The notes under the pieces are model-generated. The model searched no databases. It saw only the letters and a list, made by a program, of their open reading frames with translations, and was not told where the DNA came from. The translations under genes were made by a program, and so were the position numbers. Positions 3,422 through 34,494 of a DNA stretch of 39,033 bases are shown one piece after another. The stretch's first letter is position 1. The number at the start of each line of letters is the position of its first letter. Origin of the DNA: a virus; IMG/VR virus record IMGVR_UViG_3300045999_009132, positions 1 through 39,033 of that record; one strand, 5' to 3'.

Positions 3422-4900
3422 ATGGCCGACGCACCCGCGCCCAACTTCCTCGATCGGTTCGTCTCCTTCGTCGCGCCGGCCGCCGGCATCAAGCGCATGC
3501 GTGCGCGCGAGGCGTTGGCGCGGGCCTACGAAGGCGCCAGCCTGCGCGACGGCTGGCGACCTCGCCGCTCGGGCGCCAGCGCCAACAGCGACCACTTGGC
3601 CGACGCCTCCAGCCTGCGCGCCCGCAGCCGCGCCCTGGTGCAGAACGTGCCCTACGTGCGCCGCGGCCTCGACGCCCTGGTGGCGAACATCATCGGCACC
3701 GGAATCACGCCGCGCAGCCTGGCCACGCGCGCCGACGACATCGACCGGCTCTGGAACGAATGGGCGCAGGTGGCCGACGCTGACGGCCGCAGCGACGTCT
3801 ACGGCCTGCAGGCCGCCGCCTACCGCGCCATGGAGCAGGACGGCGAGGTTCTCATCCGCCTGCGCACCCGCCGGCCGGAAGACCGGCTGCCGGTGCCCCT
3901 GCAGCTGCAGCTGCTGGAGATCGACTGGCTCGACACCGCCAAGACCGGCACCTCGCCCAGCGGCAACACCATCGTCGGCGGCATCGAGTACGACACCCTC
4001 GGCCGGCCCAGTGCCTACTGGCTCTGGGACCAGCACCCCGGCGACGTCACGCTGCCGCGGCGTGGCAGAGCGGCCAGCTACCCCGTGCCGGCGACCAGCA
4101 TCATCCACCTGTTCAACCCCGAGCGGCCGGGCCAGGGCCGGGGCTTCCCCCGCTTGGCGCCGGTCATTGCCCGGGTGCGCGATCTGCAGCTCTACGAAGA
4201 CGCTGAGCTCCAGCGAAAGAACCTCGAAACCCGCCTGGCCGTGCTGGCCAGCGGCGACCCCAGCGCGATGTCGCTCACCGAAAGCCAGGAGCAGCAGGCT
4301 GTGCGCGCCAGCGGCGAACTCGGCACCCTCGCCAGTGGCAGCATCACCCAGGTGCCCACGGGCATGAACCTCACGGTCATCGAGCCGAAGGCTGCCCCGG
4401 GCTATGTCGACTACCTGCGGTTCAACCTGCACCTCATCGCCGCCGGCATGGGCGTCACCTACGAGATGCTCACCGGCGACGTCAAGGAGGTGAACTTCTC
4501 CAGCGCCCGCGTCGCGCTGCTGGAGTTCCGCCGCAGTGCCGAGCAGCTGCAGTGGCTCACCGTCATCCCGCGGCTGTGCGTACCGATTTGGCGGGCCTTC
4601 ATCGACGCCGCCGTGCTCGGCGGCGCGCTGCCTCGCGCCGAATACGCCGTCGACTGGTCAACCCCGAAGTGGGACTACGTCAACCCGCAGCAAGACGTCC
4701 AGGCCGACCTGGCCGAAATCTCGGGCGGCCTGTCCAGCATCAGCGAGAAGCTGCGACGCCGCGGCTACAAGCCCGACCTCGTGTTCGCCGAGCTGCGCAG
4801 CGACTTCGAGCGCCTGCGCGCCGATGGCACGCTGGACCTGCTGCTGCAGCTGCAGACGGGGCAGTCCGCGGCCAGCGCCGACCCGCCAGCGCCGGCCTGA
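3422..4900 (+). CDS. Portal protein, lambda family
   Basis: Portal vertex subunit (lambda gpB family), the dodecameric ring through which DNA enters and leaves the head. The 492-residue product shows the family features: LVQNVPYVRRGLDALVANIIGTGI near residue 72 onward (cited in part), an RSDVYGLQ...QDGEVLIR segment, LQLLEIDWLD, the IIHLFNPERPGQGRG loop, and GVTYEMLTGDVKEVNFSSAR in the clip/crown region. The C-terminus is glutamine and alanine rich. It sits directly after the gpW-like gene and before the capsid gene, in the normal lambdoid order. Lambda gpB is processed proteolytically; no such site can be assigned here. Confidence 0.95.
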   Translation: MADAPAPNFLDRFVSFVAPAAGIKRMRAREALARAYEGASLRDGWRPRRSGASANSDHLADASSLRARSRALVQNVPYVRRGLDALVANIIGTGITPRSLATRADDIDRLWNEWAQVADADGRSDVYGLQAAAYRAMEQDGEVLIRLRTRRPEDRLPVPLQLQLLEIDWLDTAKTGTSPSGNTIVGGIEYDTLGRPSAYWLWDQHPGDVTLPRRGRAASYPVPATSIIHLFNPERPGQGRGFPRLAPVIARVRDLQLYEDAELQRKNLETRLAVLASGDPSAMSLTESQEQQAVRASGELGTLASGSITQVPTGMNLTVIEPKAAPGYVDYLRFNLHLIAAGMGVTYEMLTGDVKEVNFSSARVALLEFRRSAEQLQWLTVIPRLCVPIWRAFIDAAVLGGALPRAEYAVDWSTPKWDYVNPQQDVQADLAEISGGLSSISEKLRRRGYKPDLVFAELRSDFERLRADGTLDLLLQLQTGQSAASADPPAPA

Positions 4901-4919
4901 CCGCGCGCTTCTGCAGTTT

Positions 4920-4944
4920 GTCTCAGTTTTCCTGGAATTGAGAC
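4920..4944. promoter_or_regulatory. 25-base palindrome, copy 2
   Basis: Same element as 3149-3173: GTCTCA (4920-4925) and TGAGAC (4939-4944) around TTTCCTGGAA. Here the dyad extends one base on each side (TGTCTCA...TGAGACA, 4919-4945). It occupies the short gap between the portal stop (4900) and the capsid-fusion start, 15-24 bases ahead of the two possible ATGs. It may be an operator, or a hairpin affecting capsid expression. Confidence 0.6.
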
Positions 4945-4959
4945 ACCCGGCGCCCGAGC

Positions 4960-7026
4960 ATGGGCGCCATGACCACCCCGCAAACCTCTGCCGGCAACTC
5001 GCACCTGCTGCCCACGCAGCAGCGCGCCGCCAGCATCGCGCCCAGCAGCTTTAACGCTGCCGAGCGCACCGTCGACGTCATCTGGACCACCGGCGCCAAG
5101 GTGCGCCGCATGGACTGGTGGACTGGCCAAGCGTATGACGAAGAGCTCGTCGTCAGCGCCGAGGCCGTCGACCTGTCACGCCTGGCCAGCGGCGCCGCCC
5201 CGGTGCTCGACTCGCACCGCGCCTACGGTCTCGACTCGCAGATCGGCGTCGTGCTCCGCGCCAGCGTCCAGAACGGCGAGGGCCGCGCCACGCTGCGCCT
5301 GAGCGAGCGCGAAGAGCTTGCCGGCCTGGTGCGCGACATCGAGGCCGGGATCATCCGCAACATCAGCGTGGGCTACAACGTCCAGCGCTACGACGTGGTC
5401 GCTGCGGCCAACCGCACCGACGGCGGCACCGTGCCGCTCTACAGGGCTGTCGCCTGGCAGCCCGCCGAACTCTCGTTCGTCCCCATTCCCGCCGATGCCG
5501 GAAGCGGCACTCGCGCGGACCCCGCGCATGGCACGCCGTGCCTGTTCGTTTCGGCCCAGGCCCCTGCGCCCGCGGCCGACACCACCCGGGCACCTGCCCA
5601 ACCCACCCACTCGAGGACGTCCATGGACGAAACGCTCCAGCCCGGCGGCGCGACCGCCGACAACTCCGCGCCCGCCGCCGTGCCGGCGCAGCAGCAGCGA
5701 GCCGACGCGCAGCCCGCGCAGGTTGCCGCCGACATCACCGACCTGTGCGTCCGCCACGGCGTGCCGCAGCTGGCCGCCGGCCTTATCCGCTCGGGGCAGG
5801 GCCTCGATGCCGCCCGCGCCGCCGTGCTGTCCGAGCTGGCCGTGCGTGACGCCGCCGCCGGCGGCCACCGCAACGTCGGTGCCACCCGCATCGAGACCGT
5901 CAGCGACGAGATGGCCACGCGCATGGCCGGCATCGAGCAGGCCATCCTGCACCGCATCGCCCCGCGCACCACGCTCGACGACAACGGCCGCCAGTACCGC
6001 GGCATGTCGCTGCTGGAGATCGGCCGCGCCTTCCTGGAGGCCCACGGCCAGCAGACCCGCGGCCTGGACCGCGTCACGCTCGCCGGCCGCATCCTGCACT
6101 TCCGTGCCGGCGGCATGCACACCACCAGCGACTTCTCGTCGCTGTTCGCCAACGTCGCCAACAAGCGCCTGCGTGGCGCCTACGACGAGAACCCGGGCAC
6201 CTACGCCATGTGGGCTCGCCGCGGCCCGAACGCGCCCGACTTCAAGAACGTCAGCGTCGTGCAGCTCTCGGGTGCCCCCGACCTGCTGCAGACCAACGAG
6301 CACGGCGAGTTCAAGTACGGCACGATGCGCGACGGCGCCGAGACCTACGCCGTCATCACCTACGGCCGCATCGTCAGCCTGACCCGCCAGGCCATCATCA
6401 ACGACGACCTGCGCGCCTTCGACCGCCTGGTCACGGCATTCGGCTTCGCCGCTCGCCGGCTGGAGAACCGCACGGTCTACAGCCAGCTCACGGCCAACGC
6501 CAACCTGTCCGACGGCGGCGCGCTGTTCAACAGCACGGCCATCACCACGGCGGGCGGCCACGCCAACCTGGGCACCGGAGCCGGCAGTGCCCTGCAGCTG
6601 TCCAGCCTGTCCACGGCGCGCGCCGCCATGCGCGTGCAGAAGGGCCTTGCCGGCGAAGAGCTCAACCTCGCGCCGAGCTTCCTGATCGTGCCGGCCGCGC
6701 TGGAGCAAACCGCCTACCAGCTCACCAGCAACCAGTACATGCCGGCCCAGCCGAGCAACATCAACGAGTTCCGCACCGGTGGCCGCACCGCGCTGGAGCC
6801 CGTGGTCGAGCCGCTGCTGGATGCCTCCAGCGCCTCGGCGTGGTACCTGGCCGCCGCCAGCTCGCAGGTCGACACGGTCGAGTACTGCTACCTCGACGGT
6901 GCCGAAGGCCCGGTCATCGAGAGCGACGTCGGCTTCGAGGTCGACGGTGTCTCCTACAAGTGCCGCCTGGACTTCGGTGCCAAGGCGATCGACTTCCGCG
7001 GTCTCTACAAGGCCAACGGCGCCTGA
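4960..7026 (+). CDS. Prohead protease / major capsid fusion
   Basis: One 688-residue chain joins a serine prohead protease to the major capsid protein. Residues about 30-190 look like a U35-type protease: H86 in VLDSHR, S136 in NISVGY, and the conserved ELSFVPIPAD around 170. A low-complexity Ala/Pro linker (about 195-250) follows, then a scaffold-like helical part (about 250-330) and an HK97-fold capsid domain to the end. Such fusions are a recognised phage family. ATG 4960 and ATG 4969 are both possible. An in-frame ATG at 5623 (residue 222) has its own Shine-Dalgarno GAGGA five bases upstream and could give a capsid precursor without protease. The head would mature by cleavage within the linker or delta region. 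Confidence 0.9.
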   Translation: MGAMTTPQTSAGNSHLLPTQQRAASIAPSSFNAAERTVDVIWTTGAKVRRMDWWTGQAYDEELVVSAEAVDLSRLASGAAPVLDSHRAYGLDSQIGVVLRASVQNGEGRATLRLSEREELAGLVRDIEAGIIRNISVGYNVQRYDVVAAANRTDGGTVPLYRAVAWQPAELSFVPIPADAGSGTRADPAHGTPCLFVSAQAPAPAADTTRAPAQPTHSRTSMDETLQPGGATADNSAPAAVPAQQQRADAQPAQVAADITDLCVRHGVPQLAAGLIRSGQGLDAARAAVLSELAVRDAAAGGHRNVGATRIETVSDEMATRMAGIEQAILHRIAPRTTLDDNGRQYRGMSLLEIGRAFLEAHGQQTRGLDRVTLAGRILHFRAGGMHTTSDFSSLFANVANKRLRGAYDENPGTYAMWARRGPNAPDFKNVSVVQLSGAPDLLQTNEHGEFKYGTMRDGAETYAVITYGRIVSLTRQAIINDDLRAFDRLVTAFGFAARRLENRTVYSQLTANANLSDGGALFNSTAITTAGGHANLGTGAGSALQLSSLSTARAAMRVQKGLAGEELNLAPSFLIVPAALEQTAYQLTSNQYMPAQPSNINEFRTGGRTALEPVVEPLLDASSASAWYLAAASSQVDTVEYCYLDGAEGPVIESDVGFEVDGVSYKCRLDFGAKAIDFRGLYKANGA
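5613..5625 (+). promoter_or_regulatory. Internal ribosome binding site and start
   Basis: GAGGA at 5613-5617 followed five bases later by the in-frame ATG at 5623-5625 (M222 of the fusion). It lies exactly at the start of the linker/scaffold part, the position where lambda gene C carries its nested Nu3 start. Independent capsid translation is inferred, not shown. Confidence 0.5.
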
Positions 7027-7096: not shown

Positions 7097-7426
7097 ATGC
7101 GCAACATGATCCAGGACGGTGACGTGCTCACCGTCGCCGCTCCCTACGACGTCGCCTCGGGCGCCGGCATGCAGGTGGGCTCTTTCTTCGGCGTTGCCAC
7201 CAGCGCCGCCCTCAGCGGCGCCACCGTCGAAATGGCGCTGGAAGGCGTCTGTGAACTCACCGCGCTGGGCACCGACACGGGCAGCGTCGGCACCATCGTC
7301 TACTGGGACAACACCAACAAGCGCATCACCACCACGGCGGGCTCGAACCTGAAGGTGGGCGCGCTGACCGTCGCCAAGACGAACGGCCAGACCACCGCCT
7401 TCGTGCGGCTGAACGCCACCGTCTGA
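7097..7426 (+). CDS. Capsid decoration protein, DUF2190
   Basis: A 109-residue DUF2190 protein, a family that includes capsid cement or decoration proteins lying on the outer head surface. Visible family pattern: a start with IQDGDVLTVAAP, then GAGMQVGSFFGVA, a central ALEGVCEL strand, GTIVYWD (the conserved VYWD), and a C-terminal FVRLNA. The length is typical. It follows the capsid fusion after a GC hairpin, with AAGGAA at 7084-7089 as a ribosome binding site. It should be made in large amounts, in register with the capsid. Confidence 0.85.
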   Translation: MRNMIQDGDVLTVAAPYDVASGAGMQVGSFFGVATSAALSGATVEMALEGVCELTALGTDTGSVGTIVYWDNTNKRITTTAGSNLKVGALTVAKTNGQTTAFVRLNATV

Positions 7427-22841: not shown

Positions 22842-23999
22842 ATGCCGATGAATGTCCAGAGTCGAGGGAAGAAGGCGCAGCTTCGGGTCACGCACAAGCT
22901 GCTGCCCAAGGCCTTCTTCTTCACCTTCGAGAGCGAGTCTGAGGCCCGCTCCTACGGCCAGCAGCTCGTCGCGCTGCTGGATCGCGGCGTGGTGCCTGGC
23001 GAGCTGCTCGCCGCCGCGCCGAAGGCGGCCGATGACCTGCTCATCGTCGAGGTCATCCGCGCCTACACCCAGGCCGCCCCGATCACCGACTCCGACGACC
23101 AGCTCCTGACGCAGATCATGGGCGAGGTCGTCGGCCTGCGCGTGTCTGGCCTGACCTGGGCCTGGGTCGACCGCTACGTCAACGAGCTTAAGCTCAAGCG
23201 CCACCTGGCGCCGTCGACCATCCGCAAGCGCGTCGGCGTGCTCGGCCGTGTCATGGACTGGCACCTGCGCCGCGTGACGCCGAAGGATCAGCCGATGCCG
23301 GCCAATCCGCTGCGGCTGCTACCGCGTGGCTACTCGACCTACAGCCGCGCCGATGCCGACGCCCTGGCAAAGCGCGACCTCGAGCCCCGGCGCGACCAGC
23401 ACCGCGACCGGCGGCTGCTGGCCGACGAAGAGGCGCGCATCCGCGCGGCCCTCGCCGGCGAGAAGCGGGAGGACCGCGAGCGGGCGCTGACGCCCGACGT
23501 CGAGTTCACGATGCTGTTCGACCTGCTGGTGCACACCGGCCTGCGGCTGCGCGAAGCGTACCGGCTGCGCGTCGATCAGATCGACCTGGCGCGCGGGATC
23601 ATCCGCGTCGAAGGGTCGAAGGGCCACCGCGGGGCCGAGAAGCCGCGCACGGTGCCACTGGTGCCGGTGCTGCGCGAGCGGCTGCAGGCGTACCTGCTCG
23701 GGCGCCGCGGGCTGATGTTCGGCTTTTGGGACGGCACCGACGCCGATCTGAAGAAGGCGACCGCGCGCCTGTCGGCACGCTTCGCCGTGCTGTTCGACTA
23801 CGCGAAGGTGCCCGACTTTACCGAGCACGACCTGCGCCACGAAGCCACCTGCCGCTGGGTCGAGATGCGCAGCCGCACGCGCGGCGGCTGGGCGTTCTCT
23901 GAGGTCGAGGTGTGCCGGATCATGGGGTGGTCCGACACTCGGATGATGCTGCGGTATGCCAGCCTGCGCGGGGAGGATCTGGCGGCGCGGCTGGCGTGA
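22842..23999 (+). CDS. int: Phage integrase, tyrosine recombinase
   Basis: Site-specific recombinase that integrates the phage at tRNA-Cys. 385 residues: an N-terminal arm-binding part, a SAM-like core-binding domain (about 65-150) and the catalytic domain. Catalytic residues visible: R235 in TGLRLREA, a lysine in the SKGHRGAEKPRTVPL beta turn, H329/R332 in EHDLRH, W363 in GWSD, and nucleophile Y372 in MLRYASL. The gene lies directly beside attP. It lacks obvious features of integron integrases, so it is not expected to act on the attC sites downstream. The start ATG 22842 has no strong ribosome binding site. Confidence 0.95.
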   Translation: MPMNVQSRGKKAQLRVTHKLLPKAFFFTFESESEARSYGQQLVALLDRGVVPGELLAAAPKAADDLLIVEVIRAYTQAAPITDSDDQLLTQIMGEVVGLRVSGLTWAWVDRYVNELKLKRHLAPSTIRKRVGVLGRVMDWHLRRVTPKDQPMPANPLRLLPRGYSTYSRADADALAKRDLEPRRDQHRDRRLLADEEARIRAALAGEKREDRERALTPDVEFTMLFDLLVHTGLRLREAYRLRVDQIDLARGIIRVEGSKGHRGAEKPRTVPLVPVLRERLQAYLLGRRGLMFGFWDGTDADLKKATARLSARFAVLFDYAKVPDFTEHDLRHEATCRWVEMRSRTRGGWAFSEVEVCRIMGWSDTRMMLRYASLRGEDLAARLA

Positions 24000-24001
24000 T
24001 G

Positions 24002-24023
24002 GGCCAACTGGGTTGGCCTATTT
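24002..24023 (+). terminator. Hairpin after integrase
   Basis: Perfect 7-base inverted repeat GGCCAAC (24002-24008) and GTTGGCC (24012-24018) with a TGG loop, followed by TATTT, two bases after the integrase stop. It could end integrase transcription, although the T tract is short. The left edge of the cassette array (GTTAGGC at 24027) begins nine bases later, so a relic of an integron-type site is an alternative reading. Confidence 0.5.
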
Positions 24024-24308
24024 CGCGTTAGGCCCTTCAGGCTTCGGCATCCAGTGCGTTACGCGCCGCACAAGCGGGGCTGGCAAAGCCCACGACCCCT
24101 GGTCGCAATCCCAAACAGGCCCGTTCTTGGTGTACCTGCAGGAGCTCAATGCAACGTGACCGCCTACGATCAGTCGGTACATCGGCTGCCTCCACACCAG
24201 AACTTCCTCCCCACTGGCTGGCAATTCGGTGTCGCATGCCGTCCACGGGCCTAACAGGTCGTTGCACCCGGACCCGCGGTCGGCTGTGCTCGAATCGTCG
24301 TTGCTCAT
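24018..24308 (-). CDS. DUF551 protein (cassette A cargo)
   Basis: A 96-residue protein whose pattern is that of DUF551: W..CDTELPASGEEVLVW near the start, a VGGHVAL and PVWDC strand region, and the closing VTHWMPKPEGP. DUF551 proteins are common in phage early operons; their function is unknown. It is the only gene of cassette A (24028-24350) and runs against the attC direction. Its first 60 bases lie inside attC1, and its last codons and stop (TAG, 24018-24020) lie outside the cassette in phage sequence, so the C-terminus is a junction product. The counterpart at 28418 is of the same type. Confidence 0.8.
   Translation of the reverse strand: MSNDDSSTADRGSGCNDLLGPWTACDTELPASGEEVLVWRQPMYRLIVGGHVALSSCRYTKNGPVWDCDQGSWALPAPLVRRVTHWMPKPEGPNAK
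24027..24033 (+). other. Left boundary of cassette array (GTTRRRY)
   Basis: GTTAGGC fits the integron core GTTRRRY and is preceded by CGC as usual. TTAGGC (24028-24033) is the start of cassette A; the G belongs to the receiving site. Removing 24028-25775 would rejoin this G with TTAGAC, giving the empty site GTTAGAC just after the integrase gene. Confidence 0.75.
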
Positions 24309-24356
24309 TCGGTGCTCCAGTGGCCCATGCGCGGGCCGGTGAACGGTGCGTTAGCC
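24249..24356 (+). other. attC: attC site 1 (cassette A)
   Basis: Integron recombination site of 108 bases. R'' GCCTAAC (24249-24255), L'' arm GTTGCACCCGGACCCGCG, L' arm CGCGGGCCGGTGAAC, R' GTTAGCC (24350-24356). The two arms pair except for an unpaired G and C on the left strand and one mismatch, the asymmetric extrahelical-base layout of attC. R'' is the exact reverse complement of GTTAGGC (24027-24033) at the left edge of the same cassette. Confidence 0.85.
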
Positions 24357-24773
24357 AGCGCCAACAGCCCCGCGCGCCAGCGCTCGCGCGTCTTCCAGGG
24401 CGTTGTGTGGCACGCGCGAAGTCGTTGCCGTGTCGGGCAAGTCGCGGCGGACCTCAAACGTCATGCAGTCAGGGCCGACCCGCTCGCCTGGCGCCCACTC
24501 CAGAAAGTTGCACAGGTGCGCAATGTCGCCGGGCCAGTCAGAAACGATATGCACGCTGTCGAAGCTGCACAGGAATGCGCCCAGCTCGCCGCGCAGCGTG
24601 GCGTCTCGCTGCGGCTCTTGGTTCAGGCGCGGCATCACATGTTCTTTCACCCACCAGCCGGGGTCGTCGCAGAAGCGCACGCCGTACCACTCGCGGCCAT
24701 CCTCGGCCACCAGCGCCAGCGAAATCAGCGCGCCTCTGTACTCGTTGAACTCGGTGTCTATCCACAGCTTCAC
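24351..24773 (-). CDS. DEDD 3'-5' exonuclease-like protein (cassette B cargo)
   Basis: A 140-residue protein of the Rv2179c/PF16473-like 3'-5' exonuclease group. Motif I is D6 and E8 in LWIDTEFNEYRG; motif II is HIVSDWPGD; motif III is PHNALEDARALA with the final H and D, so all four acidic residues of a DEDDh site are present. The start is GTG 24773 with AAGGA seven bases upstream. It is the sole gene of cassette B (24351-24865). Its stop TAA is formed by the cassette edge GTTAGCC itself. A second DEDD exonuclease is encoded by the phage at 28982. Substrate (RNA or DNA) cannot be told. Confidence 0.85.
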   Translation of the reverse strand: MKLWIDTEFNEYRGALISLALVAEDGREWYGVRFCDDPGWWVKEHVMPRLNQEPQRDATLRGELGAFLCSFDSVHIVSDWPGDIAHLCNFLEWAPGERVGPDCMTFEVRRDLPDTATTSRVPHNALEDARALARGAVGAG

Positions 24774-24814
24774 GTTTGCATCCTTCAGTCGTTTGCCAGC
24801 ATTTCACCAGTGCT

Positions 24815-24871
24815 GGCTAACTGGCGGTTCAAGCGGACGGCCTACGGCCGCCGCTCAACCCGGCGTTAGGT
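24815..24871 (+). other. attC: attC site 2 (cassette B)
   Basis: A compact 57-base attC. R'' GGCTAAC (24815-24821), L'' GGTTCAAGCGGACGGCC, loop around CTAC, L' GGCCGCCGCTCAACC, R' GTTAGGT (24865-24871). The left arm has an unpaired C and A relative to the right arm. R'' is the exact reverse complement of GTTAGCC (24350-24356), the left edge of cassette B. Confidence 0.88.
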
Positions 24872-25116
24872 TGCTTACCGCACTCGCCGCGCAGTTCTTC
24901 CATGCACTGCCAAAGTCGCCCGTCGCCGTTCTTCTGGTGCGTCGTGGTGTCCCATGCGTCCATCGTTCGCTGCATCACATGCTGCTGGCGCTCAATCATG
25001 GCGGCGGCTTGCGATAGAGCCATCTCCAGGCCCGCGATCACGTCCGAGCTTGTGGGCGCCTTGCAGCATCGGCCGAAGGGCATGTATTTGGCTGCGCAAG
25101 TGCATTCAGTCTGCAT
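24829..25116 (-). CDS. Cassette C protein 3, unknown
   Basis: A 95-residue protein, last of three overlapping genes in cassette C. It has a cysteine-rich start (ECTCAAKYMPFGRCCKAP) that may bind metal, a helical centre (LEMALSQAAAMIERQQHVM) and a C-terminal QPNAGLSGGRRPSA that is simply the translation of attC2, with the TGA stop inside the L'' arm. ORFs that end inside attC are common in integron cassettes. Starts at an overlap with the gene at 25106. Function unknown. Confidence 0.7.
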   Translation of the reverse strand: MQTECTCAAKYMPFGRCCKAPTSSDVIAGLEMALSQAAAMIERQQHVMQRTMDAWDTTTHQKNGDGRLWQCMEELRGECGKQPNAGLSGGRRPSA

Positions 25117-25309
25117 AGGGCGCCCTCAGGAACTCAATCGTCGGCGCCTCTTTGCGCAGCGCGTAATACTCGACCTGCACCTTTGCGCTTCCGATCATCT
25201 TACCTGCCAAGTTGGCAAGCTCTGCCGCTTCGCCAGGCTTGATCTCGCCAGCGCGCAGCTTTGCAAACACGTCGGCCAACTGGCCGCGCAGTTCATCCAC
25301 GTTTTTCAT
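25106..25309 (-). CDS. Cassette C protein 2, unknown
   Basis: A 67-residue, mainly helical protein (VDELRGQLADVFAKLRAGEI, then PGEAAELANLAGKMIGSAKVQ) of a type seen in phage early regions. Its start overlaps the end of the gene at 25293 by 17 bases and its end overlaps the gene at 24829 by 11 bases, so the three are translated together. No known domain. The helical repeat suggests a small regulator or partner protein; this is a guess only. Confidence 0.7.
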   Translation of the reverse strand: MKNVDELRGQLADVFAKLRAGEIKPGEAAELANLAGKMIGSAKVQVEYYALRKEAPTIEFLRAPYAD

Positions 25310-25700
25310 TGATCGCCCTTTTCAGCTTCATCAGTTCTCGGTACGCATCGACAAGGCCATGCGGTATGTCGCTGCCTTTCATGCTCGTGTGCTGCGCCAT
25401 GATCCGGCGCACAAAACCGTCCGAAAGCGTCTCGGCATCGCGCTTGTTCCTGGCACGTTGCCACTCCTTACGCTCCTGCCTAGCAGCGGCTTTGGCACGT
25501 ACTTCCGGCTTGTTGGCGTACCGGTTAGCCTGCTCGCGCCTGCGATTCGGGTTTGCCTCAACCCATGCGCGCTTTTTCTCGGCCGCCCGATCCGGGTGCG
25601 CCTGCTCCCATGCGCGCGCCTTCGCTATCTGGCGCTCTCGATTGGCGGCGTACCACTGGCGCAGGTATGCCTTCTTCCGTTCTCTCTGTTCATCTGTCAT
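25293..25700 (-). CDS. Cassette C protein 1, unknown basic protein
   Basis: A 135-residue, very basic, helical protein. The first 75 residues repeat an A/N-P-x-R-R pattern (EQAHPDRAAEKKRAWVEANP, RREQANRYANKPEVRAK) typical of nucleic-acid-binding phage proteins. Start ATG 25700 has GGTGGAG upstream on the minus strand, placed between attC3 and the gene. It opens the three-gene unit of cassette C (24866-25775). No catalytic HNH residues are visible, although such helices often precede HNH domains. Confidence 0.7.
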   Translation of the reverse strand: MTDEQRERKKAYLRQWYAANRERQIAKARAWEQAHPDRAAEKKRAWVEANPNRRREQANRYANKPEVRAKAAARQERKEWQRARNKRDAETLSDGFVRRIMAQHTSMKGSDIPHGLVDAYRELMKLKRAINEKRG

Positions 25701-25718
25701 CGTTTACTCCACCAAGCA

Positions 25719-25781
25719 ACCTAACCCGTCGCTCAAGCTGACCCGCGCTGGCGCGCGGTCAGCTTAGCTCCCACGTTAGAC
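25719..25781 (+). other. attC: attC site 3 (cassette C)
   Basis: A 63-base attC of textbook form. R'' ACCTAAC (25719-25725), L'' GCTCAAGCTGACC, central CGCGCTGGCGCG hairpin, L' GGTCAGCTTAGC, R' GTTAGAC (25775-25781). The only difference between the arms is one unpaired C on the left, the extrahelical base. R'' is the exact reverse complement of GTTAGGT (24865-24871), the left edge of cassette C. TTAGAC at the end belongs to the phage flank. Confidence 0.92.
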
Positions 25782-26063
25782 GCTCGGCAACACCGGCAAC
25801 ACCGGCGGCTTCCTTGGCCTTCCAGGCACCGCCCGCAGCGCCACCGCTGCCGGCGCAGGCTTGCCCCGGCGCTGGGCTGATTCCTGCAGCGCCAGTTCCT
25901 CCAAGCGCTTCAACAACGCCCCGGCCGGCAGCACCCAGTCGCTGCCGAGCTTGAGTCCGGGCAGGTCGCCGTCGCGCAGGCGCTGGCGCACGGTTGAGGG
26001 CTCGCAGCGCAGGAGTTGGGCGGCGGCTTCGACGTCGAGGACGGGAGGGAGTTTGTCACTCAC
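25776..26063 (-). CDS. Excisionase/MerR-type helix-turn-helix protein
   Basis: A 95-residue DNA-binding protein. The N-terminal half, PPVLDVEAAAQLLRCEPSTVRQRL followed by DGDLPGLKLGSDWVLPAGALL, is the winged helix-turn-helix of the excisionase/MerR (HTH_17) type. The C-terminal tail is Pro/Arg rich. GTG 26063 is preferred (GGGAGG five bases upstream); ATG 26078 would add five residues. It was the last gene of the leftward operon before the cassettes arrived, facing the integrase, the usual place for an excisionase or a recombination-directionality factor. Its stop TAA lies in the TTAGAC that flanks attC3. Confidence 0.75.
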   Translation of the reverse strand: MSDKLPPVLDVEAAAQLLRCEPSTVRQRLRDGDLPGLKLGSDWVLPAGALLKRLEELALQESAQRRGKPAPAAVALRAVPGRPRKPPVLPVLPSV

Positions 26064-26718
26064 GATCGCCTCCCTCATGTCTGTCAAGGATGCCTTGACA
26101 GGTGCCCCCGACATGCACGATCCGCTCCCCCGGCCGCAGCCAGGCGCCGACGGTGACCCACTGGCGCGCGCCGTCGCCCTGGTACTCGGCCAGCACATCG
26201 GCGGGATCCTGCGCGGCTGCCTCGGCCACCATCTCTGCCGTGCGCCGCATCACGTCGATGGCCGCCACGGCCGCGGCTGCCCTCTCCGGCAGGTCATGCC
26301 AAGACCACCTGGTCAGCTCTGGCTCCGGGCCGCGCAGGGTAACCGCTACGCGGCGCAGGATGTCGCGCATGCGCTCGCGCAGCTCCTGCTCCTCGTTCAG
26401 ATTGGCCTGCAGCCGCGCGATCTCGATCTGCAGCGCCTGCGCCTCGCACTGGCGCTGGCACGGTGCTGGGTGCTCGCCGCGGTCTTGTAGTTCCCGGCGC
26501 GTGGTGGCCGCCGTGTTCCCGAAAGCGGCTTCGGGAACATCCGGCATCAACGGCAGCAGCAGCTTCGCCAAGCATGCGCCGATGTCTGTCGAGCCCGGCT
26601 CCCACGTCGCGGCATGCTGCGCGATCAGCCCCCAGTTGTAGGTTGTTGTTCCGTCCGCATTGATGCGGGCCAATTCGTCGCCCCGCGAATTCCGGGAGAA
26701 GTCCAGCAACTTACTCAT
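26056..26718 (-). CDS. Leftward operon protein, unknown
   Basis: A 220-residue protein. ATG 26718 is chosen because the G-run (GGGGGG) lies six bases upstream; ATG 26724 is adjacent to it. The start (SKLLDFSRNSRGDELARINADG) is followed by a cysteine pair (PAPCQRQCEAQ), a helical coil (IEIARLQANLNEEQELRERM) and a beta-like end (GDGARQWVTVGAWLRPGERI). The gene overlaps its neighbours on both sides. It is a member of the phage early operon with no recognised family. Confidence 0.65.
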   Translation of the reverse strand: MSKLLDFSRNSRGDELARINADGTTTYNWGLIAQHAATWEPGSTDIGACLAKLLLPLMPDVPEAAFGNTAATTRRELQDRGEHPAPCQRQCEAQALQIEIARLQANLNEEQELRERMRDILRRVAVTLRGPEPELTRWSWHDLPERAAAAVAAIDVMRRTAEMVAEAAAQDPADVLAEYQGDGARQWVTVGAWLRPGERIVHVGGTCQGILDRHEGGDRE

Positions 26719-34331: not shown

Positions 34332-34458
34332 GGGTGCCCTCCTCGTGTCGGTGGTTGGTGTCGGAGCCGCCAGCGTACACCGGGCCGGGCGCCCGCCCCG
34401 TGTCTCCTCCGCGGCACTCACCACGCGCGTTCACTCCCGGCGCGCGGGCCACGGCTTC

Positions 34459-34494
34459 GCCCCGGGCCTTGCGGCCTGGGGCGTTTTTTCTTCT
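34459..34494 (+). terminator. Intrinsic terminator (tR1 position)
   Basis: Stem GCCCCGGGCC (34459-34468), loop TTGC, GGCCTGGGGC (34473-34482) with one G-T pair, followed by G and six T (34484-34489) then CTTCTT. It would stop rightward transcription after the Cro-like unit and before the CII-like gene, exactly the place of lambda tR1. It lies in a 185-base stretch (34332-34516) with no gene. Confidence 0.85.

Follow-up and report, generated by a model that had tools for sequence, protein, structure and literature searches.

Integron cassettes with backward-facing genes in a temperate phage, and their likely link to a phage-resident integron system

Background and main finding

Integrons are usually viewed as bacterial devices that are occasionally picked up by phages. 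The stretch of DNA analysed here (the window, a virus record of 39,033 bases) carries, between the phage integrase gene int and an excisionase-like gene, xis, three consecutive elements that we interpret, with a probability of roughly four in five, as integron cassettes belonging to a phage-resident integron system. It also seems rather probable to us that this system represents an old phage-specific lineage in which the integron integrase (IntI), attI and attC would have co-evolved with phages, at least with part of those of Burkholderiales-like hosts, and whose cassettes, traded among phages independently of host integrons, would contain early phage genes that face backward and are transcribed along with intI upon induction.

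Results and discussion

The phage genome and the surroundings of the array

The record has the gene content of a tailed temperate phage, with terminase, portal, head protein, tape measure, endolysin and primase matching phage families; the sequence-only reading, which had taken the DNA for a temperate phage with integron cassettes, is borne out by these phage-family genes and by the integrase (Table 1). Leftward genes run from ca. 32.6 kb down to 24018, with xis and then the cassette region at the end of the operon, and int, on the opposite strand, is transcribed towards the array. The int product is not an IntI, since it scored 33.7 bits with the integron integrase model, for which the cut-off is 265. 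It was the only match of that model in the window, so that no intI was found in this record, which may be incomplete, as had been read from the sequence. Inspection of the sequence next to 24027 revealed no phage attI motif. Between int and the first cassette edge lies a perfect inverted repeat, GGCCAACTGGGTTGGCC, in which R'' and R' boxes follow each other without arms; it is probably the int terminator or a degenerate site, and a similar GTTRRRY-bearing terminator has been described beside a phage CALIN by Qi et al. 2023 (PMC9892861). Minimal box pairs of this kind are also present in L024 (3902-3920) and in L009 (near 7120-7146).

Table 1. Features of the array and its borders in the window. 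R1 and R2 are the covariance models built from cellular and phage attC sites, respectively; a slash marks the cut between G and TT; n/n gives the complementarity between a cassette edge and the R'' box of the same cassette.
Feature	Position	Strand	Details
Phage tyrosine integrase (int)	22842..23999	+	PF00589 E 8.8e-12; phrog_1 1e-26
Perfect inverted repeat GGCCAACTGGGTTGGCC	24002..24018		between int and first cassette edge; weak R2 match on both strands
Cassette 1	24028..24350	+ (attC polarity)	G/TTAGGC left edge to G of own R' box
DUF551 protein gene (phage family), cassette 1	24018..24308	-	PF04448 E 2.1e-6; phrog_924 E 2.9e-6
attC1, 108 nt	24249..24356	+	GCCTAAC...GTTAGCC; R1 24.5 bits, E 3.3e-4; box-and-stem scanner 21.2
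Cassette 2	24351..24865	+ (attC polarity)	GTTAGCC / GGCTAAC 7/7
Phage RNase H-like/exonuclease protein gene, cassette 2	24351..24773	-	phrog_2259 E 3.6e-24; gene caller
attC2, 57 nt	24815..24871	+	GGCTAAC...GTTAGGT; R1 22.2 bits, E 1.4e-3; R2 28.7 bits
Cassette 3 (two or three genes)	24866..25775	+ (attC polarity)	GTTAGGT / ACCTAAC 7/7
ORF c, cassette 3, function unassigned, least certain gene	24829..25116	-	ORF only; dropped by gene caller
Gene b, cassette 3, function unassigned	25106..25309	-	ORF and gene caller
Gene a, cassette 3, no family match	25293..25700	-	ORF and gene caller
attC3, 63 nt	25719..25781	+	ACCTAAC...GTTAGAC; R1 33.9 bits, E 9.2e-7; R2 47.5 bits, E 4e-10
Excisionase-like HTH gene (xis)	25776..26063 (longest ORF 25776-26198)	-	HTH_17 E 3e-7; phrog_1840 E 2.2e-7

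No DNA similarity to the first 25 kb of the window was found among deposited phages, the array itself giving only short matches to the RNase H gene, in Caulobacter phages, and a scan with the window xis as the query gave no matches. The prophage L265 (see below) and distant integrase matches suggest Burkholderiales as the host group. An Rfam scan of the window returned no attC-like family; at 34401-34489, mostly a strong terminator hairpin, sub-threshold matches to anti-hemB and to a Betaproteobacteria toxic sRNA were observed.

Three attC sites and three cassette edges

A covariance model, R1, was built from 11 cellular attC sites only, taken from IntI loci in bacterial genomes, which avoids circularity. 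Run over both strands of the whole window it rendered exactly three matches, all of them on the plus strand and with the end coordinates that had been read earlier from the letters. An independent box-and-stem scanner ranked the same three sites as the top three of the window and preferred the plus polarity for each of them, so that position and strand are confirmed by model, scanner and sequence. The bottom strands of all three sites fold as attC stems with bulged bases, as the sequence-only reading would have it, and for attC2 and attC3 the folding is better than in every one of 200 shuffles (z = -4.7 for attC3), attC1 reaching only z = -1.6. The second and third sites score higher with a model of phage attC sites, R2 (19 sites, those of the window left out), than with R1; the reverse is true of attC1, which is matched weakly by R2 (9.5 bits) and only over 24249-24304. 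Two earlier procedures were superseded by the two covariance models: a strict regular-expression and folding scan, which had found one of the three window sites, and the box-and-stem scanner, which gave false matches in relatives such as L020.

The left edge of each cassette is the perfect reverse complement of the R'' box of the same cassette at all 7 positions, in three of three pairs (for cassette 1, GTTAGGC at 24027 and GCCTAAC at 24249), whereas none of the three attC sites is 7/7 complementary within itself. Both halves of this pattern, which is that of a cut between G and TT, had been noted from the sequence. Consecutive attC sites of the same polarity, recognised by a structure-aware model and with edges complementary to their own R'' boxes, are what defines a CALIN (at least two attC sites, no intI nearby); since intI, which a complete integron has in the same element, and a recognisable attI are absent from the window, the array would formally be a CALIN.

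The earlier reading did not include the coding strand of the cassettes. Every called cassette gene of the window lies on the minus strand, antisense to attC and collinear with the leftward phage operon, and not sense to attC as in a canonical cassette array. Another point new to this analysis is that the Shine-Dalgarno sequence and the ATG of the DUF551 gene sit in the attC1 loop. The stop codon TAA of the RNase H-like gene is the TTA of the attC1 R' box on the opposite strand, ORF c terminates within attC2, gene a has a good Shine-Dalgarno sequence and starts 19 nt from R'', and the stop codon of xis is, again on the opposite strand, the TTA of the attC3 R' box. No homologue of the cassette proteins of the window was found in any of the loci fetched for comparison.

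The int/xis junction in related phages

Integrase-based scans of IMG/VR rendered 62 relatives. In most of them xis, recognised with an HMM, begins no more than about 60 nt from the int stop codon, a conserved neighbourhood that we refer to as a closed junction. In the window the two genes are 1,780 nt apart and the array lies exactly between them, so that the locus exists in forms with and without the insert, the comparison that the sequence-only reading had proposed. Several relatives (L016, L037, L052, L057 and L065) have 2-3 kb of other genes in the int/xis gap with no detectable attC; the gap alone is therefore not diagnostic, and the junction may be a general insertion hotspot.

With an HMM made from cellular IntIs, an intI gene was found directly downstream of int in six relatives (L003, L021, L023, L024, where it is frameshifted, L030 and L031), the IntI of L003 scoring 427 bits against the curated cut-off of 265. 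A full module is present in L030, in the order int, xis, intI, attI and at least five cassettes, with R' boxes as unlike as GTTAGCC, GTTGTGC and GTTCGGC, each of which matches its own R'' box. Another locus, L009/L040, holds an array without intI in a window-like layout. Covariance model searches of the 62 loci gave convincing matches only in L015 (on the same contig as L003), L021, L024, L030 and L040, always on the plus strand and downstream of int.

A clade of phage integron integrases

A scan with six phage IntIs detected IntI relatives in 218 viral stretches, the best 80 of which were fetched; at least 51 dereplicated viral IntIs fall into one phage clade. In a first tree 52 viral rows grouped in one clade with no cellular row inside, and in a mixture-model tree of 89 rows the clade received a UFBoot of 100 and an SH-aLRT of 98. 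When the 20 best IntIs from 399 Burkholderiales genomes were added, the clade remained intact (SH-aLRT 98) with one genome-derived member, which is 92% identical to that of phage L162 and is itself located in a prophage. This prophage, L265 (G121:C13, 1-6219), carries a reversed integron with seven attC matches, intI, xis and int, and ends at int, beyond which the host genes for threonine synthase, homoserine dehydrogenase and an aminotransferase follow. A terminase or tail-fibre gene is present in at least 28 of 50 clade records, many of which are short fragments, and in L160 the integron lies between terminase and portal. Most of the loci compared are metagenomic contigs. Among the best matches of an INPHARED search with phage IntI there was no isolate of the clade. 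These matches were the cases reported by Qi et al. 2023 (PMC9892861), one further class 1 record, fragments of Acinetobacter phages and KX853513, which is distant.

We define a phage-lineage integron by two features, an IntI of this clade and, in a tailed phage, cassette genes that are reversed and occupy the int/xis junction. The window has the second of these; the first was not found in its 39,033 bases, a record that is possibly incomplete. The window shares with the phage-type system the junction, the orientation, the type of cargo and two of three attC types, and by its position, orientation and attC type the array would be linked to the phage IntI lineage and would probably have originated from such a system.

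attI, attC polarity and reversed cargo

Upstream of phage intI there is a conserved attI region, GTTATGCGACA ... GGGTGTCG..GAATTTAA/GTTRKGC, and an exact pattern search with the motif GTGTCG..GAATTTAA/GTTRKGC matched 12 viral contigs. On 76 of the fetched viral loci R1 gave 99 attC matches, of which 97 lie on the strand predicted for sites upstream of intI, and on the viral loci R2 gave 148, all of which (148/148) have the canonical polarity relative to intI. The stem of R2 shows strong covariation, with 56 double-changed cells compared to 20 in shuffles, and two conserved extra bases. A backwards reading of the attC polarity was dismissed on these two counts.

Relative to attC, the phage arrays contain 100 antisense and 8 canonical cassette genes, whereas the cellular arrays contain 3 and 47, respectively (Fisher p about 5e-28), as called with a home-made strand-symmetric codon-usage script and with family matches for few cassettes. 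Counted by locus, the numbers are 28 antisense and 1 canonical for phage arrays and 1 and 14 for cellular ones; an earlier count with R1 alone had given 72:14 and 4:66. All array genes with a family match are antisense, including, besides the DUF551 and RNase H genes of the window, those for an HD hydrolase (L003), PAPS reductase, DUF4326, Dam (in a prophage) and phrog_24232 (L160). The start codon lies inside attC or at most 60 nt from it in 48 of the 56 attC sites that have a gene after them, so that each cassette would carry its own ribosome site beside the hairpin. The orientation of cassette genes relative to attC, which is usually held to be typical of integrons, would then not be fixed by the recombination mechanism.

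Signs of cassette movement

The complementarity between a cassette edge and its own R'' box extends to the arrays of related phages, where it is perfect in 26 of 46 cases compared to 12 of 79 within single attC sites; 20,000 permutations gave a mean of 9.7 and a maximum of 20. A cassette of L003 (9862-10286) is 99.5% identical to one in L231, where it is attI-proximal and accompanied by an IntI of another subclade, and on either side the identity breaks off exactly where G and TT would be cut apart, which lends indirect support to recombination by IntI. L030 (676 bp, 99.4%) and L220 (669 bp, 100%) contain duplicated cassettes. Near-identical array pairs from different metagenomes, L189/L190 and L194/L195, are distinguished by short indels of about 42 and 51 bp and are possibly natural variants of one array.

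Alternative explanations

The window array could be a stretch of a host chromosomal integron caught by illegitimate recombination or by off-target insertion by an IntI, with no phage-specific system involved. There is a published precedent in Vibrio phages (Qi et al. 2023, PMC9892861), donors would be common, IntI-like genes being present in 149 of the 399 sampled Burkholderiales genomes, and the lack of intI in the window and the better fit of attC1 to the cellular model point in the same direction. We nevertheless regard this origin as unlikely, because all cassette genes of the window are antisense and two belong to phage families, whereas 47 of 50 cellular genes are canonical, and because intI and arrays occur at this junction in relatives and attC3 is of the phage type. 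Taken as an isolated acquisition of a host-type array, the sequence-only reading is not supported, given these antisense phage-type genes, the intI at the same junction in six relatives and the grouping of the phage IntIs without cellular ones. Far less probable still is that the sites never recombine and are hairpins of the terminator or repeat kind, located between phage genes and similar to attC by chance or convergence. They do lie at gene boundaries, attC stems can have weak terminator activity, and inverted repeats of the GTTRRRY type are known close to phage terminators (PMC9892861), as at 24002-24018 in the window. Against this stand the covariance model matches, of which there are exactly three in 39 kb, all consecutive and with the same polarity, the edge rule, and the exchange of a cassette with breakpoints between G and TT in relatives.

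It is possible, though we hold it doubtful, that the array is the decaying remnant of an ancestral phage integron that lost intI and attI and whose cassettes are now fixed as ordinary genes. This would be a special case of a phage-resident integron system and not an alternative to it. The window has neither intI nor a clear attI, its array now sits in the gap between int and xis and not on the far side of intI, and the same intI-less layout is seen in L009/L040; against decay, the three R''/edge pairs are perfect and all boxes are intact, so that any loss of intI and attI would be recent. Alternatively, the cassettes of the window may have been inserted recently.

Proposed mechanism

In the phage-resident integron system that we favour, the chemistry and geometry of IntI would be unchanged: as in bacterial integrons, IntI would insert circular cassettes at attI, and would excise or reshuffle them through cleavage of the folded bottom strand of attC between G and TT, attI being followed by cassettes with R' distal to intI. 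The cargo would be flipped, running towards intI, so that a promoter at attI would read it antisense. The cassettes, and then intI where present, would instead be read as one operon from the leftward early promoter of the phage, which would take the place of a cassette promoter at attI. Once the early operon is induced, intI would be co-expressed with the cargo, at a time when replication also offers single strands, and the platform would serve the swapping of small accessory early genes. As for the window, which has no intI, its cassettes would be mobilisable only in trans, by an IntI supplied by another phage or by a host integron.

Relation to known integrons

The phage system has in common with the sedentary chromosomal integrons and CALINs of Bacteria the IntI (TIGR02249), attI, the attC fold and its polarity relative to intI, as well as R''/edge complementarity and the duplication and exchange of cassettes. 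It differs from them in being carried by phages, in the separate clade of its IntIs, in its phage-type cargo and in the direction of the genes, which run towards intI (100 vs 8) and not away from it as in cellular integrons (47 vs 3), so that a promoter at attI would read the phage cargo antisense.

The view that there was no well-described case of cassettes in a phage, held in the sequence-only reading, is outdated. In 10,705 phage genomes, Qi et al. 2023 (PMC9892861) identified 3 complete integrons, 17 CALINs and 1 intI that had no cassettes; their assay showed that IntI1 recombines phage attC sites. The attC arrays in phage genomes, some with IntI, are common to that work and ours. Their complete phage integrons match host integrons (Vibrio, Shewanella, class 1), the arrays are typical cassette arrays or have divergent attC directions, and there is no mention of a phage IntI clade, of an int-xis-intI module or of cargo that is systematically antisense (PMC9892861). 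Our literature search, which did not extend to preprints, brought up neither a phage IntI clade nor cassettes that are systematically antisense. Integrons in phages are thus known (Qi et al. 2023, PMC9892861), and what appears to be new is a phage-specific IntI lineage with reversed phage-type cargo.

An integron integrase clade all but restricted to phages, which has an attI of its own and in which the reversed layout of the cassettes suits a phage operon, would make phages owners and traders of integron cassettes, running a gene-swapping platform of their own. There would be a direct route for cassettes from phage to phage and from phages to bacterial arrays, and a testable reason for the mosaic nature of much of their small accessory cargo.

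The distant INPHARED match, KX853513 (Virus Rctr41k; L234), is a deposited phage from a DAMO enrichment that encodes at 4680-5678 a divergent IntI-like protein with 43% identity, annotated only as xerD/integrase-like; it is not in the table of complete integrons of Qi et al. 2023 (PMC9892861). A second viral group (L203, L216 and L221-L223) likewise has viral IntIs and attC arrays, with an IntI clade separate from the phage IntI clade described above. In L203, a member of this second group, attC lies downstream of intI on the same strand, the genes are sense to attC, and intI points into the array.
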